This document shows positions 1,487 to 26,620 of a stretch of 64,000 bases of DNA, in pieces (positions within the stretch are counted from its first letter, which is position 1; each line of letters starts with the position of its first letter). Made by a program: the position numbers and the translations under genes. The DNA is taken from NCBI RefSeq assembly GCF_004366735.1, contig NZ_SOQX01000005.1, positions 17,501 through 81,500 of the forward strand, in the 5' to 3' direction. Under the pieces are notes generated by a model, which saw only the letters and a program-made list of their open reading frames with translations, did no database searches and had not been told where the DNA came from. Source of the DNA: Thiohalophilus thiocyanatoxydans (GTDB lineage Bacteria > Pseudomonadota > Gammaproteobacteria > UBA6429 > Thiohalophilaceae).

Positions 1487-1573
1487 GCAGGACAGGACCC
1501 ACGCCTCTGCGTGAGCCCCCGCCTGCATCAGGAGCGGATTGTCGGCCCCGGTCGTTTTGCTTAGCATAAGCCC

Positions 1574-2749
1574 ATGACAACCTATTACATCGGTCTGATG
1601 TCGGGTACCAGCCTGGACGGCATCGATGCCGCCTTGCTCGATTTGCGCCAACGCCCCCACCTGTTGGCACAGCACAGCCACCCGCTGCCCGACCCGCTGC
1701 GCCAGCAACTCTATCAATTGCAGACACCCGGCGAGAATGAACTAAGCACCATGATGCGCCTGGATGTGGAACTGGGCCGGCTGTTCGCCGAAGCCGTTCA
1801 CGCCCTGCTGGCAAAAGCCGACAAACGCGCCGGCGAGATCGCCGCCATCGGCAGCCACGGGCAGACCTTGCGCCATTACCCCGACGGACCGACTCCCTCG
1901 ACCTTGCAGATTGGCGATCCCAACCTGATCGCCGAACTGACCGGGATCACCACCGTCGCCGATTTACGCCGCCGCGATCTGGCCGCCGGCGGCCAGGGCG
2001 CCCCGCTGGTCCCCGCCTTTCATGCCGCGATGTTTCACCGGGACGGGAGCAACCGGGCGATCCTGAACCTTGGTGGCATCGCCAATCTCACCCTGCTGCC
2101 GGCGGACAACCAGGCCGCGGTCACCGGCTTCGATACCGGACCGGGCAACGGCCTGCTGGACAGCTGGATCGCCCGACACCAGCAACAGCGTTATGATCGC
2201 GACGGCGAATGGGCCGCCAGCGGCCACGTGCATCCCGGCCTGCTGGAGCGCCTCTTGCACGATCCCTATTTTGCCCGTCCCCCGCCCAAAAGCACCGGTC
2301 GTGAATACTTCAACCTGAACTGGCTGCAACCAGCGCTGGAACCCTTTGCCGACCTGGCACCCCGCGACGTGCAGGCCACCCTGTGCGAACTGAGCGCCCG
2401 CAGCATCGCCGAGGCACTGCAAGCGGCGATGGACCCGGTGGAGGAAGTGCTGATCTGCGGCGGCGGCATCCATAACCGCGCGCTGTATCAACGGCTGGAA
2501 GCGTTGCTGACCCCGGCCCGCCTCGCCAGCACCGCCGAAGCCGGCCTGGATCCCGACTGGGTCGAAGCCGCCGCCTTCGCCTGGCTGGCGAAACAAACCC
2601 TGGCTGGCGATCCCGGTAACCTGCCTTCCGTGACCGGCGCCTCGCATCCTGTCGTGTTGGGGGGTATCTACCCCGGGAAAGGGCCGAGGGCCGAGGGACG
2701 AGTAACGAGGGACGAGGAAAAGCTTCACCACGAAGACACGAAGGCTTGA
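1574..2749 (+). CDS. anmK: Anhydro-N-acetylmuramic acid kinase
   Basis: Phosphorylates and opens 1,6-anhydro-MurNAc with ATP to give MurNAc-6-phosphate in cytoplasmic peptidoglycan recycling. The ATP-binding GTSLDGID loop is at residues 11-18 and DTGPGN is near residue 187, both diagnostic for AnmK. It is about 20 residues longer than the usual ~370. The extra C-terminal residues after GGIYPGK are encoded by an intergenic inverted-repeat element that runs over the original gene end. There is no clear Shine-Dalgarno sequence; a -10-like TAGCAT ends 6 bases before the ATG. Confidence 0.93.
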   Translation: MTTYYIGLMSGTSLDGIDAALLDLRQRPHLLAQHSHPLPDPLRQQLYQLQTPGENELSTMMRLDVELGRLFAEAVHALLAKADKRAGEIAAIGSHGQTLRHYPDGPTPSTLQIGDPNLIAELTGITTVADLRRRDLAAGGQGAPLVPAFHAAMFHRDGSNRAILNLGGIANLTLLPADNQAAVTGFDTGPGNGLLDSWIARHQQQRYDRDGEWAASGHVHPGLLERLLHDPYFARPPPKSTGREYFNLNWLQPALEPFADLAPRDVQATLCELSARSIAEALQAAMDPVEEVLICGGGIHNRALYQRLEALLTPARLASTAEAGLDPDWVEAAAFAWLAKQTLAGDPGNLPSVTGASHPVVLGGIYPGKGPRAEGRVTRDEEKLHHEDTKA

Positions 2750-10296: not shown

Positions 10297-10462
10297 ATAA
10301 AAACGCGGAGTTCGCAGAGTCGCGGAGACGCAGAGAAAATATTTGGCAATGACCAGAGATGCCATTGCCTGAATAAAGTATACAAATTCATCTTACATGC
10401 GATGCATGCATACCCCGTTATCCTCCGCGTCTCTGCGCCTCCGCGAACTCTGCGTTAAATAA
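10297..10462. repeat. Inverted-repeat element 2 (CGCRGAG units)
   Basis: The left arm 10297-10338 and right arm 10420-10462 are imperfect reverse complements built from 8-9 base units of the form NCGCGGAG/NCGCAGAG. G/A alternation between arms allows G-U pairing. About 80 bases separate the arms. It sits between the convergent aldolase-like gene and rubredoxin. Confidence 0.75.
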
Positions 10463-22512: not shown

Positions 22513-22536
22513 AAAAAGGGGGCCGAAGCCCCCTTT
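22513..22536 (-). terminator. Terminator of adk, possibly bidirectional
   Basis: The stem AAAGGGGGC/GCCCCCTTT with a short loop is followed on the minus strand by a T tract directly after the adk stop. It may also end the convergent cls-like transcript. Confidence 0.75.
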
Positions 22537-22541
22537 AGCGA

Positions 22542-23696
22542 TTAGCGCCGTTTTCTGGCGCTTTTCTTTTTGGCTTTCTTTTTCGCCTTCTTCTTGGCGA
22601 CTTTTTTCTTGGCTTTCTTCTTGGCCACTTTCTTCTTCGCGACCTTCTTCTTGGCGGCCTTCTTCTTCGCGACTTTCTTCTTGGTGGCCTTTTTCTTCGC
22701 GATCTTCTTCTTGGCCGCCTTCTTCTTCGCGACCTTTTTCTTCGCGACCTTCTTCTTGGCTATCTTTTTCTTGGCAACCTTCTTCTTGGCAGCTTTCTTC
22801 GCGACCTTCTTCTTGGCCGCCTTCTTCTTCGCGACCTTTTTCTTCGCGACCTTCTTCTTGGCTACCTTTTTCTTGGCAGCTTTCTTGGTGACCTTCTTCT
22901 TGCTGCCGCTCTTTTTGGCTGCCACCTTTTTCCTGGTGGTTTTCTTACTGCCGCCAGTTTTCTTCTTCGCCGCAGTTTTCTTCTTGGCCGTCTTCTTCTT
23001 GCTTGCAGCTTTTTTGGCCGCCGGCCTCGCCGCCGCAGTTTCCGTACCGGGCAGGCTGGCCAGGATGCGCTCCACGGCAGCGAAGATGTCGCTGATCTCG
23101 CCCACGCCCTGAACAGTCCGCAATTTCCCCTGGCGACGATAGTAATCGATCAGCGGCGCCGTCTGTTCCTGATAAACATCCAGACGCTTGCGAATGGTCT
23201 CTTCGTTGTCGTCCTCACGCTGGGTCAGCTTGCCGCCACACTTGTCACACACCCCCTCGATCCGTGGCGGGGAGAAATAGATGTTATACATCTGGCCACA
23301 GGAACTGCAGGTACGGCGCCCGGTCAGGCGTTTGACCAGCACATTCTTGTCCACGTCGATCAGCAGACCGACCTGCAGGGGCTTGCCCATATCGCCGAGC
23401 AATGTGTCGAGGGATTCGGCCTGGGCCGTATTGCGCGGAAAACCGTCCAGAATAAAGCCCTTGTCGGTATCCGGACGAGAGAGACGATCGCGAATCATAC
23501 CCAGGACGATGTCATCGGAGACCAGCTGGCCGGCGTCCATCGCAGCCTTGGCCTGCATACCCAGCGGGGTGCCTTTGGAAACCGCCTCGCGCAGCAGATC
23601 GCCGGTTGATATCTGCGGTATTCCGTATTTTTCTACCAGCAGTTTGGCCTGGGTGCCTTTACCGCCACCCGGCGCACCAATTAATACGATTCTCAT
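22542..23696 (-). CDS. adk: Adenylate kinase with long Lys/Ala-rich histone-like tail
   Basis: Residues 1-217 form a complete long-type adenylate kinase (ATP + AMP to 2 ADP). The P-loop is GAPGGGKGT, with [17 protein letters not shown] and a zinc-type LID of four cysteines, C130/C133/C150/C153. Residues 218-384 (DNA about 22545-23045) are a tail of pentamer-like KKKxA units, almost only Lys, Ala, Val and Thr. It resembles histone H1 C termini and AlgP of Pseudomonas. The frame is continuous, so this is a real fusion rather than a neighbour. The tail should bind nucleic acid or other polyanions. Repetitive DNA makes length variation likely. Confidence 0.93.
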
Positions 23697-23852: not shown

Positions 23853-25856
23853 CTAACTCAACAGCGGCGCAATCACCAGACTGACAATCGCCAGCACGTT
23901 GATCAGGATGTTCATTGAAGGCCCCGACGTATCCTTGAACGGATCACCTACCGTGTCACCGACGATCGCCGACTTGTGGCTCTCGGAACCCTTGCCCCCG
24001 AATTCGCCGCCCTCAATATACTTCTTGGCGTTATCCCAGGCACCGCCGGCATTGGACATCATCAACGCCAGCAACACGCCGGTGACCAGCGCGCCACCGA
24101 GCATCCCGCCCAGCGCCTCCGGACCGATCAGAAAACCGACCAGCGGTGGGGCCGCCACCGCCATGCCGCCGGGCAGCAACATCTTGCGTAACGCAGCATC
24201 GGTGGCAATCGTTATACAGCGCGCCGTGTCCGGTTTGGCGGTGCCTGCCATTAACCCGGGGATCTCCCGAAACTGTCGCCGAATCTCCTGAATCATCAGA
24301 GAGGCCGCGTCGCCCACGGCGGTCAGGGTCATGGAGGTAACCAGAAACGGGAAAACCCCGCCGATAAATAATCCCACCAGGACCTCCGGCTGGCCCAGAT
24401 GCAGGCTGAAATCGGGCCGATTATGGGCCACTGTCTGGATAAACGCGGTGATCAGGGTCAGGGCGGCCAGCGCCGCGGCGCCGATGGCAAACCCCTTGCC
24501 AATGGCGGCGGTAGTGTTACCGACGCGATCCAGCGCATCGGTGATCTCGCGGGTCTCTTCGCCCAGCTCCGCCATCTCGGCGATGCCGCCGGCGTTATCC
24601 GCCACCGGTCCATAGGCATCGATGGCCATGGTCATGCCGACGGTGGCCAGCATCCCCACCGCGGCAATCCCCACACCATAGAGTCCGACCCAATGGCTGG
24701 CGAGGAAAATAATCACCGCAATACTCAGCACCGGAAACAACACGGAGCGAAAGCCGGTCGCCAGACCGGTAATCACAACAGTCGCCGCCCCGGTCAGGGA
24801 GGCCTCGGCCAGATGTCGTACCGGTTTGCCGGCGGTATAATATTCCGTGGACAGCCCGATCACCATCCCGCCGGCGGCCCCCAGCAAGACACAGAACCAG
24901 ACATCGATATGCACATCGAGCGCGCGGATCACAAACCAGGCGCCGAGCATGAACAACAAGGCAGTGCCGAGCAACGAATAACGAATCGCCTGCTGGGCGC
25001 CCCGGTTCTGATAGAGGCGCATCGCGGCGATCCCGACCAGTACACACAACAGTCCCATACTGCTCAACGCCAGCGGCAGGAACATCAGGGTTGACTGGGT
25101 TCCCAGCCGGGCCAGGGCGGTATCGGACATGACCGCCGCCAGGGCCAGGGTGGCGATCATCGCCCCGCAATAGGATTCAAAAATATCCGAGCCCATGCCG
25201 GCGACATCACCGACATTATCGCCCACGTTATCGGCGATCACTCCGGGGTTACGCGGATCATCCTCGGGGATACCGGCCTCGAACTTGCCCACCAGATCTG
25301 CCCCGACATCGGCCGACTTGGTATAGATTCCCCCGCCGACACGGGAGAATAACGCCACCGACGAGGCCCCCATGCCGAAGCCGTGAATGACATGGGAACC
25401 CTGGGGATCGCCGCCATAAACCACAAACAGGACACCCAGTCCCAGCAGTCCCAGCGCCGCGACGGTCAGTCCCATTACCGCCCCGCCGGAGAAGGCCACG
25501 CTCAGCGCCCGGCCGGCACCAAACGTGTTGGCAGCGTGGGTGGTGCGCACATTGGCATAGGTGGCCGCCTGCATGCCGATATAGCCGGCACCGGCCGAAC
25601 AGACGGCCCCGACCACGAATGAGACCGTGGTGCCCACGCCCAGATAGATATAGAGAAGTACCGCTACCACCACGGAAAACAGAGTCAACTGCAGGTATTC
25701 GCGGCGCAAAAACACCATGGCGCCACGATGGATTTCTCCTGCGATTTCCTGCAGACGACTATCGCCGGCCGGATGGCGACTGATGCGATAGAAAACCAGC
25801 AGCGCCGCTATCATACCAAAGGCCCCGACAATCGGTGGTACCAGTGTGAGCGACAT
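23853..25856 (-). CDS. hppA: Membrane-bound ion-translocating pyrophosphatase
   Basis: Couples PPi hydrolysis to H+ or Na+ export. The 667-residue protein has about 16 membrane segments and the catalytic [11 protein letters not shown] region (DX7KXE), followed by two [16 protein letters not shown]-type acidic motifs. The sequence GNTTAA has alanine where K+-independent enzymes have lysine, so it should be K+-dependent. The ion pumped is not settled by this. AAGGGGGAG precedes ATG 25856 as Shine-Dalgarno. It is divergent from the soluble pyrophosphatase. Confidence 0.94.
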
Positions 25857-26071: not shown

Positions 26072-26620
26072 ATGAATCTGGACAGAGTCGATCCCGGCAA
26101 GCATATTCCCGAGAACATCAATGTAATTATCGAGATACCGGCACACAGTGACCCGGTCAAATACGAGGTGGACAAGGACACCGGCGCCATGTTCGTGGAT
26201 CGGTTCATGAACACCGCCATGCACTATCCGTGCAACTACGGTTACGTTCCCCATACCCTGTCCGAAGACAGCGATCCGGTCGATGTACTGGTGGTGACGC
26301 CTATGCCCCTGATCAGCGGCTCGGTTGTACGCTGCCGTCCCGTTGGTATCCTGAAAATGACCGATGAAGCCGGCCCCGACGCCAAGCTGCTGGCCGTGCC
26401 AATTACCAAGTTGTGCCAACTCTACGAAAAGGTCGACGCCCCCAAAGACATGCCGCAGCAACTGCTGGACCAGATTGCGCACTTTTTCGAGCACTACAAG
26501 GATCTGGAAGAGGGCAAGTGGGTCAAGATCGACGGCTGGGGCGACAAGCAGGCCGCCCATCAGGAAATTCTGGATTCCATCGAACGCTATAATAACGCCC
26601 CGGAAAAACCGTGCTTCTGA
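26072..26620 (+). CDS. ppa: Soluble inorganic pyrophosphatase
   Basis: Family I Mg2+ pyrophosphatase of 182 residues. The signature segments are [15 protein letters not shown], the YGYVPHT loop and DSDPVDVLV, which carries the metal aspartates. It is divergent from hppA, so the cell encodes both energy-wasting and energy-conserving PPi hydrolysis at one locus. The next gene starts 1 base after its stop. Confidence 0.95.

Follow-up and report, generated by a model that had tools for sequence, protein, structure and literature searches.

The adenylate kinase (Adk) encoded in the stretch of Thiohalophilus thiocyanatoxydans DNA analysed here (64,000 nucleotides, hereafter the window) is a zinc-type enzyme whose reading frame continues into a long, lysine-rich C-terminal tail, and our computations show that the basic composition of this tail is under purifying selection and has been retained for a long time. 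We assign a probability of roughly one half to the reading that the tail, a disordered polycation resembling histone H1, tethers the enzyme to nucleic acid. The preliminary description of this DNA had proposed a complete zinc-type Adk running in frame into an H1/AlgP-like polycation tail, and we indeed found an intact core and a tail of 172 residues in one ORF. The 384-residue protein, recognised by its ORF, its Pfam and NCBIfam matches and its orthologues in other genomes, is encoded at 22542..23696 on the minus strand by a single unbroken frame with an ATG start, preceded by a GGAG that can be read in the sequence, and 384 codons ahead of the stop. On the same strand, 5 bases from the stop codon, lies an intrinsic-terminator-like hairpin (22515..22536, minus strand; 9 pairs, 6 of them G-C, and a T-rich tail), identified as a consensus match of a kind that occurs 7 times in the region versus 3.1 times after shuffling.

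The Adk core (residues 1-212; 23061..23696, minus strand) contains the P-loop, the lid cysteines C130, C133, C150 and C153, and the conserved arginines. Pfam assigns residues 5-190 to ADK (188.6 bits) and residues 127-162 to ADK_lid (65 bits), both over the curated cut-offs, and the NCBIfam model NF001380 gives 309.5 bits against a cut-off of 251. Aligned with 22 relatives, the window protein shows no variation at K13, R36, R88, R123, R127, R160 or R171, nor at any of its four lid cysteines, and the nearest solved structures among the best 60 of 97 matches are adenylate kinases, e.g. PDB 5g3y, 4qbh and 1zin. An AlphaFold2 model built from this 23-sequence alignment has pLDDT blocks of 92-96 across residues 1-210, with 202 residues at 90 or more. 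On these grounds the window protein is predicted to be a catalytically complete and presumably active zinc-type adenylate kinase. The genome also encodes a second Adk, which has no tail.

The tail itself (residues 213-384; 22545..23060, minus strand) consists of a short linker followed by KKKxA/KKKA units, and is characterised as a disordered polycation by its composition, dN/dS and low pLDDT. Lysine makes up 51% of its 172 residues; residues 221-384 comprise 88 lysines, 5 arginines and no aspartate or glutamate, giving a net charge of +93, a composition that is far from chance. The units had been described as KKKxA, which holds in part, since KKKxA and KKKA are both present; not all units are KKKxA, and Tandem Repeats Finder (TRF) reports periods of 12, 15, 18 and 102 bases in the tail DNA, including an array of period 15 with 21.7 copies at 22586..22902 on the minus strand (score 333). 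AlphaFold2 predicts no secondary structure in the tail, and 120 residues of the whole model have a pLDDT below 50 and a further 48 one of 50-70. Among 59 complete tails, the length ranges from 71 to 441 residues and differs among species, the net charge ranges from +22 to +172, and 57 have at least two arginines or lysines among the last five residues. At E 0.001 Pfam lists four families for the window protein; histone H1-like HC2 (PF07382) is not one of them, and the likeness of the tail to HC2 and to AlgP is one of composition only. The Adks of tubeworm endosymbionts (L073, L074 and L077) have tails of 259 to 441 residues, that of L073 being cut by the end of its contig, in which a strongly acidic linker comes first and the lysine-rich part after it. 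Apart from the tail repeats, the window holds a dispersed, partly inverted short repeat, CTCTGCGNNCTCCGCG and near copies of it, at 10304, 10439, 12257, 27219 and 27334 (5 matches with at most 2 mismatches, versus 1.1 expected).

A search for the fusion in related genomes, suggested in the preliminary description, found it in the genus, the family and the class. It is present in a second genome of the genus (G001, 3 contigs), whose protein is 92% identical over 361 residues and 98% identical in the core, with a tail of 207 residues. Among 37 genomes of the Thiohalophilaceae, the own genome included, 30 encode a strong orthologue of the window Adk, and a lysine-rich tail is seen in 26 of the 28 family loci that were fetched, the other two running off their contig before the tail. 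A tail-type orthologue was not found in the seven remaining family members, of which G008 and G028 are nearly complete. In a sample of the class, 276 genomes from about 157 families (a total read from the family codes), a tailed Adk is present in 67 genomes and 39 families according to a coordinate rule (a match reaching at least residue 280 and an open frame of at least 300, with up to 7 candidates scored per genome); under this rule 13 rows with frames of at least 280 are ambiguous and were counted as untailed, and G198 is probably tailed. Eight of the genomes with a tailed Adk by the rule are assembled as single contigs, and the letters of the tail were read directly in three of these eight. 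The tail is absent from 14 members of the gammaproteobacterial Adk clade and from five Woeseiaceae loci, and the existence of relatives without it means that the tail is dispensable in some lineages. Nine draft contigs stop inside the Adk tail or just ahead of it, and tailed adk genes are probably truncated in many draft assemblies. We also considered that the tailed protein might be a specialised second copy of Adk, and rejected this as a general rule: five genomes with a completeness of at least 95% (one of them, G017, with 6% contamination) have a single Adk match, and in each of these the tail was read.

On a tree of the core (155 rows, built by a quick method with SH-aLRT support), the 92 gammaproteobacterial rows form a group (support 98) whose sister (support 98) comprises 40 rows, most of them under the label Nitrospirota and a few under other labels; none of these 40 is tailed. 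The label tailed or untailed changes 6 times on the whole tree when L144, whose tail contains less than 25% lysine, is scored as untailed and two contig-cut rows are left out. A K/A-rich tail of about 80 residues is also found on a distant, non-zinc Adk lineage (L153-L155), which represents 3 of 150 genomes of the phylum with a match over the NF010381 cut-off. Since these three tailed sequences fall in a separate, distant clade, with the untailed L156 and L157 beside them, the tail has at least two origins on this tree.

One of the two main rivals of tethering to nucleic acid is that the tail is a neutral or mildly useful growth of low-complexity sequence, spread by duplication of units and tolerated without any specific partner. 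This would fit the variation in length (71-441 residues) and in repeat unit among complete tails, the repeats still visible at the DNA level, the lack of the tail in some relatives, and its rate of evolution, which is faster than that of the core: in 15 close pairs, some of which share a sequence, tails had a pooled pN/pS of 0.22 and cores one of 0.07. The same comparisons, however, point to purifying selection. For the pair within the window's own genus, the tail has a dN of 0.064, a dS of 0.874 and an ω of 0.07, and single-pair tail values of ω range from 0.07 to 0.38 where dS was computable, all of them biased low, as is dN, because the alignment of repeats favours matching residues. Aspartate or glutamate stands opposite lysine or arginine at 10 of 1187 aligned tail positions, and acidic residues account for 107 of 8918 in the lysine-rich part of complete tails. 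In a neutral simulation at d = 0.36, the synonymous distance of the core, the frame stayed open in 15 of 5000 runs. Long runs of A are also avoided: across 67 tails we counted 37 runs of at least 7 A versus 168 after shuffling, 6 versus 138 of at least 8, and 0 versus 62 of at least 9, a comparison that overstates independence because units within a tail copy each other, albeit in tails from deeply diverged lineages. This scarcity is due to the order of the lysine codons. Together with the retention of the tail over deep divergence, the few changes on the tree and the second origin in another Adk lineage, these observations make near-neutral growth an unlikely explanation.

The preliminary description had further raised the possibility that the tandem repeats allow length switching. 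The data speak against an on/off switch of this kind, and we rejected the candidate of a phase-variable repeat gene: all TRF periods are multiples of 3, so that a change in copy number leaves the frame intact, and the tails avoid long runs of A. The tail thus looks like a translated, frame-protected and composition-selected disordered region, unlike a slippage switch.

We propose that the tail would act as a non-specific electrostatic tether holding part of the cellular Adk on nucleic acid, the candidate targets being nucleoid DNA and/or RNA and polysomes, and that the reaction ATP + AMP <-> 2 ADP would be buffered there, at sites of ATP consumption. The benefit of the tail would then presumably be a local adenylate balance. 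The substrates of Adk diffuse fast, and the local benefit may therefore be small. A polycation moreover binds any polyanion, be it RNA, DNA, acidic proteins or anionic lipid, and the sequence cannot by itself choose the partner. That a polycation tail could place Adk on nucleic acid, as had been suggested, is nevertheless plausible from composition and precedent, and we favour nucleic acid as the likely partner because the own genome encodes lysine-rich proteins of the H1-like, RNase R-like and DksA types and because the literature ties such tails to DNA or RNA. According to the part of the text available to us, the tails of AlgP and PhaF bind DNA or are thought to do so (PMC9239181), and Streptomyces TopA is kept on DNA by lysine repeats (excerpt of PMC7398561); likewise, prokaryotic DNA- and RNA-binding proteins are described as enriched in lysine-rich low-complexity regions (excerpt of PMC6821194).

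The lysine-rich proteins of the genome differ in their organisation. The DksA-type protein (L003, 1087-1827, minus strand) has DksA_N and zinc-finger matches over cut-off and a long K/A-rich N-terminal region, which gives a match to histone-like HC2 below the cut-off. The H1-like protein (L004, near 1501-1860, minus strand) stands alone and is an almost pure lysine-repeat protein of about 120 residues; along as many as 309 bases its DNA is about 80% identical to the stretch encoding the Adk tail, a likeness behind which may lie shared composition and codon use. The RNase R-like protein (L006, 882-2621, minus strand; RNB and S1 domains) has a lysine-rich C-terminal tail. A fourth protein, of 197 residues (L005, 1504-2097, minus strand), also has a lysine-rich C-terminal tail and has no Pfam match, and its role thus lends no support to the nucleic-acid reading.

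The other main rival starts from sulfur metabolism. Here the tail would bind acidic partners or an anionic membrane near the membrane pyrophosphatase HppA, APS reductase or ATP sulfurylase (Sat), as part of a scaffold that channels AMP and pyrophosphate during sulfur oxidation. The own genome carries aprA, dsrA and sat, and dsrA is enriched with the tail: it was found in 44 of 67 tailed versus 47 of 209 untailed genomes (raw counts, not controlled for phylogeny; the positives include fragments under the family cut-off, 89 of the 91 matches being over it), in 26 of 39 tailed versus 27 of 118 untailed families, and in 37 of 51 tailed versus 2 of 14 untailed rows of the gammaproteobacterial Adk clade, where L144 and two contig-cut rows were counted as tailed. 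Of the 16 tailed named loci, 8 have HppA upstream of adk, both strands being counted. In addition, among 47 untailed loci (within L047-L105) that come mostly from Nitrospirota, together with Thermodesulfobacteria-type and Archaeoglobi records, and that include the sister group of the tailed Adks, adk is mostly followed by sat and then by aprA: of the loci with enough flanking sequence, 38 of 45 encode Sat and 33 of 40 encode AprA downstream. Such adk-sat-aprA clusters fit the need for AMP recycling in sulfate reduction, and the position of the sister group in sulfate-reduction clusters, taken with the dsrA enrichment, suggests that the window Adk probably has a further part in sulfur oxidation, in the AMP/pyrophosphate cycle of APS reductase and ATP sulfurylase. 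This role, however, falls to the core and leaves the tail unexplained. Among sulfate reducers, the Adks linked to sat are tailless, 23 of the 67 tailed genomes have no dsrA, and Sat was found downstream of adk in none of the 16 tailed named loci and in 1 of 23 tailed loci of the class sample, there on the opposite strand. The phylogenetically independent contrasts between tail and dsrA number 2-4, too few for a test. We therefore rejected the idea that the link to sulfur metabolism gave rise to the tail, kept that link as context and as a rival, and regard the scaffold as improbable.

The two pyrophosphatases said to adjoin adk are confirmed by Pfam: HppA, a membrane H+-translocating pyrophosphatase (23853..25856, minus strand; H_PPase, 836.7 bits), is the upstream neighbour, and the soluble inorganic pyrophosphatase Ppa (26072..26620, plus strand; Pyrophosphatase, 196.1 bits) is divergently encoded. 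In the preliminary description this neighbourhood served as a tentative pointer to polyphosphate as the partner of the tail, and a further rival would have the tail anchor Adk to polyphosphate granules, where ATP would be remade with polyphosphate kinases. In E. coli, PPK and Adk jointly provide a polyphosphate:AMP phosphotransferase activity, which would suit such an arrangement. The pointer did not stand up to comparison, since Ppa is equally common beside untailed relatives: it lies upstream of adk in 13 of 16 tailed named gammaproteobacterial loci, compared with 13 of 18 untailed representatives of that clade, as judged with single reference proteins on both strands, a search that may miss divergent neighbours and in which L144 was counted as tailed. 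In the class sample, where flanks are short, Ppa was upstream in 3 of 25 tailed loci. The own genome (completeness 100) gave no match to PPK1 at E 1e-50 and none to PPK2, while 7 and 8 of 14 control genomes did, respectively. Nor does ppk1 track the tail: 44 of the 67 tailed genomes have a match, as do 126 of the 209 untailed ones (p 0.47), leaving 23 tailed genomes without a PPK1 match. AlgP, with its similar tail, is described as associating with polyphosphate granules and as appearing at the nucleoid in cells without polyphosphate kinases, as far as the available part of the source goes (PMC9239181). For this organism the idea of polyphosphate as the partner is thus largely refuted, and we consider it very improbable. 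Lastly, an artefact from a frameshift, a chimeric assembly or gene-call read-through has practically no chance of explaining the fusion and was rejected. Several draft contigs do end in the tail or just ahead of it, and the repeat is hard to assemble, but the refuting conditions set in the preliminary description (a frameshift or assembly error, or no tail in independent sequence) fail: the same architecture occurs in the second genome of the genus and, by the coordinate rule, in eight single-contig genomes, and a terminator-like hairpin directly follows the stop.

If tethering to nucleic acid is nonetheless the function of the tail, a broader and more tentative picture would be that many Gammaproteobacteria (67 of the 276 genomes sampled) and, independently, another proteobacterial lineage keep their Adk, sometimes the only one detected, on the nucleoid or on polysomes by means of an H1-like tail, and so organise adenylate balance on nucleic acid instead of in the cytosol; the Apr-Sat AMP/pyrophosphate cycle of sulfur oxidisers might thereby also be coupled to the state of the chromosome or of translation. 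Textbooks present adenylate kinase as a soluble enzyme, and it serves as a model in the study of enzyme dynamics. The presence of a tail on Adk in many bacteria, under selection and evolved at least twice, suggests that the location of adenylate balancing matters in the bacterial cell, and tailed and untailed Adks form a clean protein pair with which to ask whether there is a spatial tie between nucleic acid and central energy metabolism.

Tailed Adks are already in the databases as plain adenylate kinase, which is the name given both to the NCBIfam models matching the window Adk best and to NF010381, the model with tailed members. Among the matches listed in our literature search, whose scope did not extend to most subscription journals and bioRxiv, no lysine-tailed adenylate kinase was found; both halves of the protein are familiar, and, as far as we have seen, their union in an enzyme of central metabolism is undescribed. 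The window Adk shares its catalytic core, lid cysteines and arginines with the zinc-type bacterial enzymes (ADK and ADK_lid; 5g3y, 4qbh, 1zin), whereas the chains of these structures, among the best 60 of 97 matches, comprise 187-245 residues and are too short for such a tail. The Adks of NF010381/PRK13808 (335 positions) also have a K/A-rich C-terminal tail, but this tail is shorter and of separate origin, and the C-x-x-C lid motif was not found in them; the window Adk scores 206.5 bits against their cut-off of 426 and falls in a separate clade, and was thus rejected as a member. AlgP and PhaF of Pseudomonas resemble the window tail in composition, having a long, K/A-rich, low-complexity C-terminal domain that the available part of the source links to DNA binding (PMC9239181), but they have no enzyme domain, are built from KPAA instead of KKKxA units and act on granules. 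Membership of the window protein in that family was rejected as well, because its N-terminal part is an Adk and not helical or phasin-like and its units are KKKxA/KKKA. The chlamydial Hc2 and histone H1-like proteins contain lysine-rich pentamers that vary in copy number (excerpt of PMC2848022) and, unlike the window Adk, are nucleoid proteins that stand alone and have no catalytic domain. Actinobacterial TopA is also a tailed enzyme, one held on a polyanion by C-terminal lysine repeats (excerpt of PMC7398561), with the difference that DNA is TopA's own substrate, whereas Adk works on free nucleotides.
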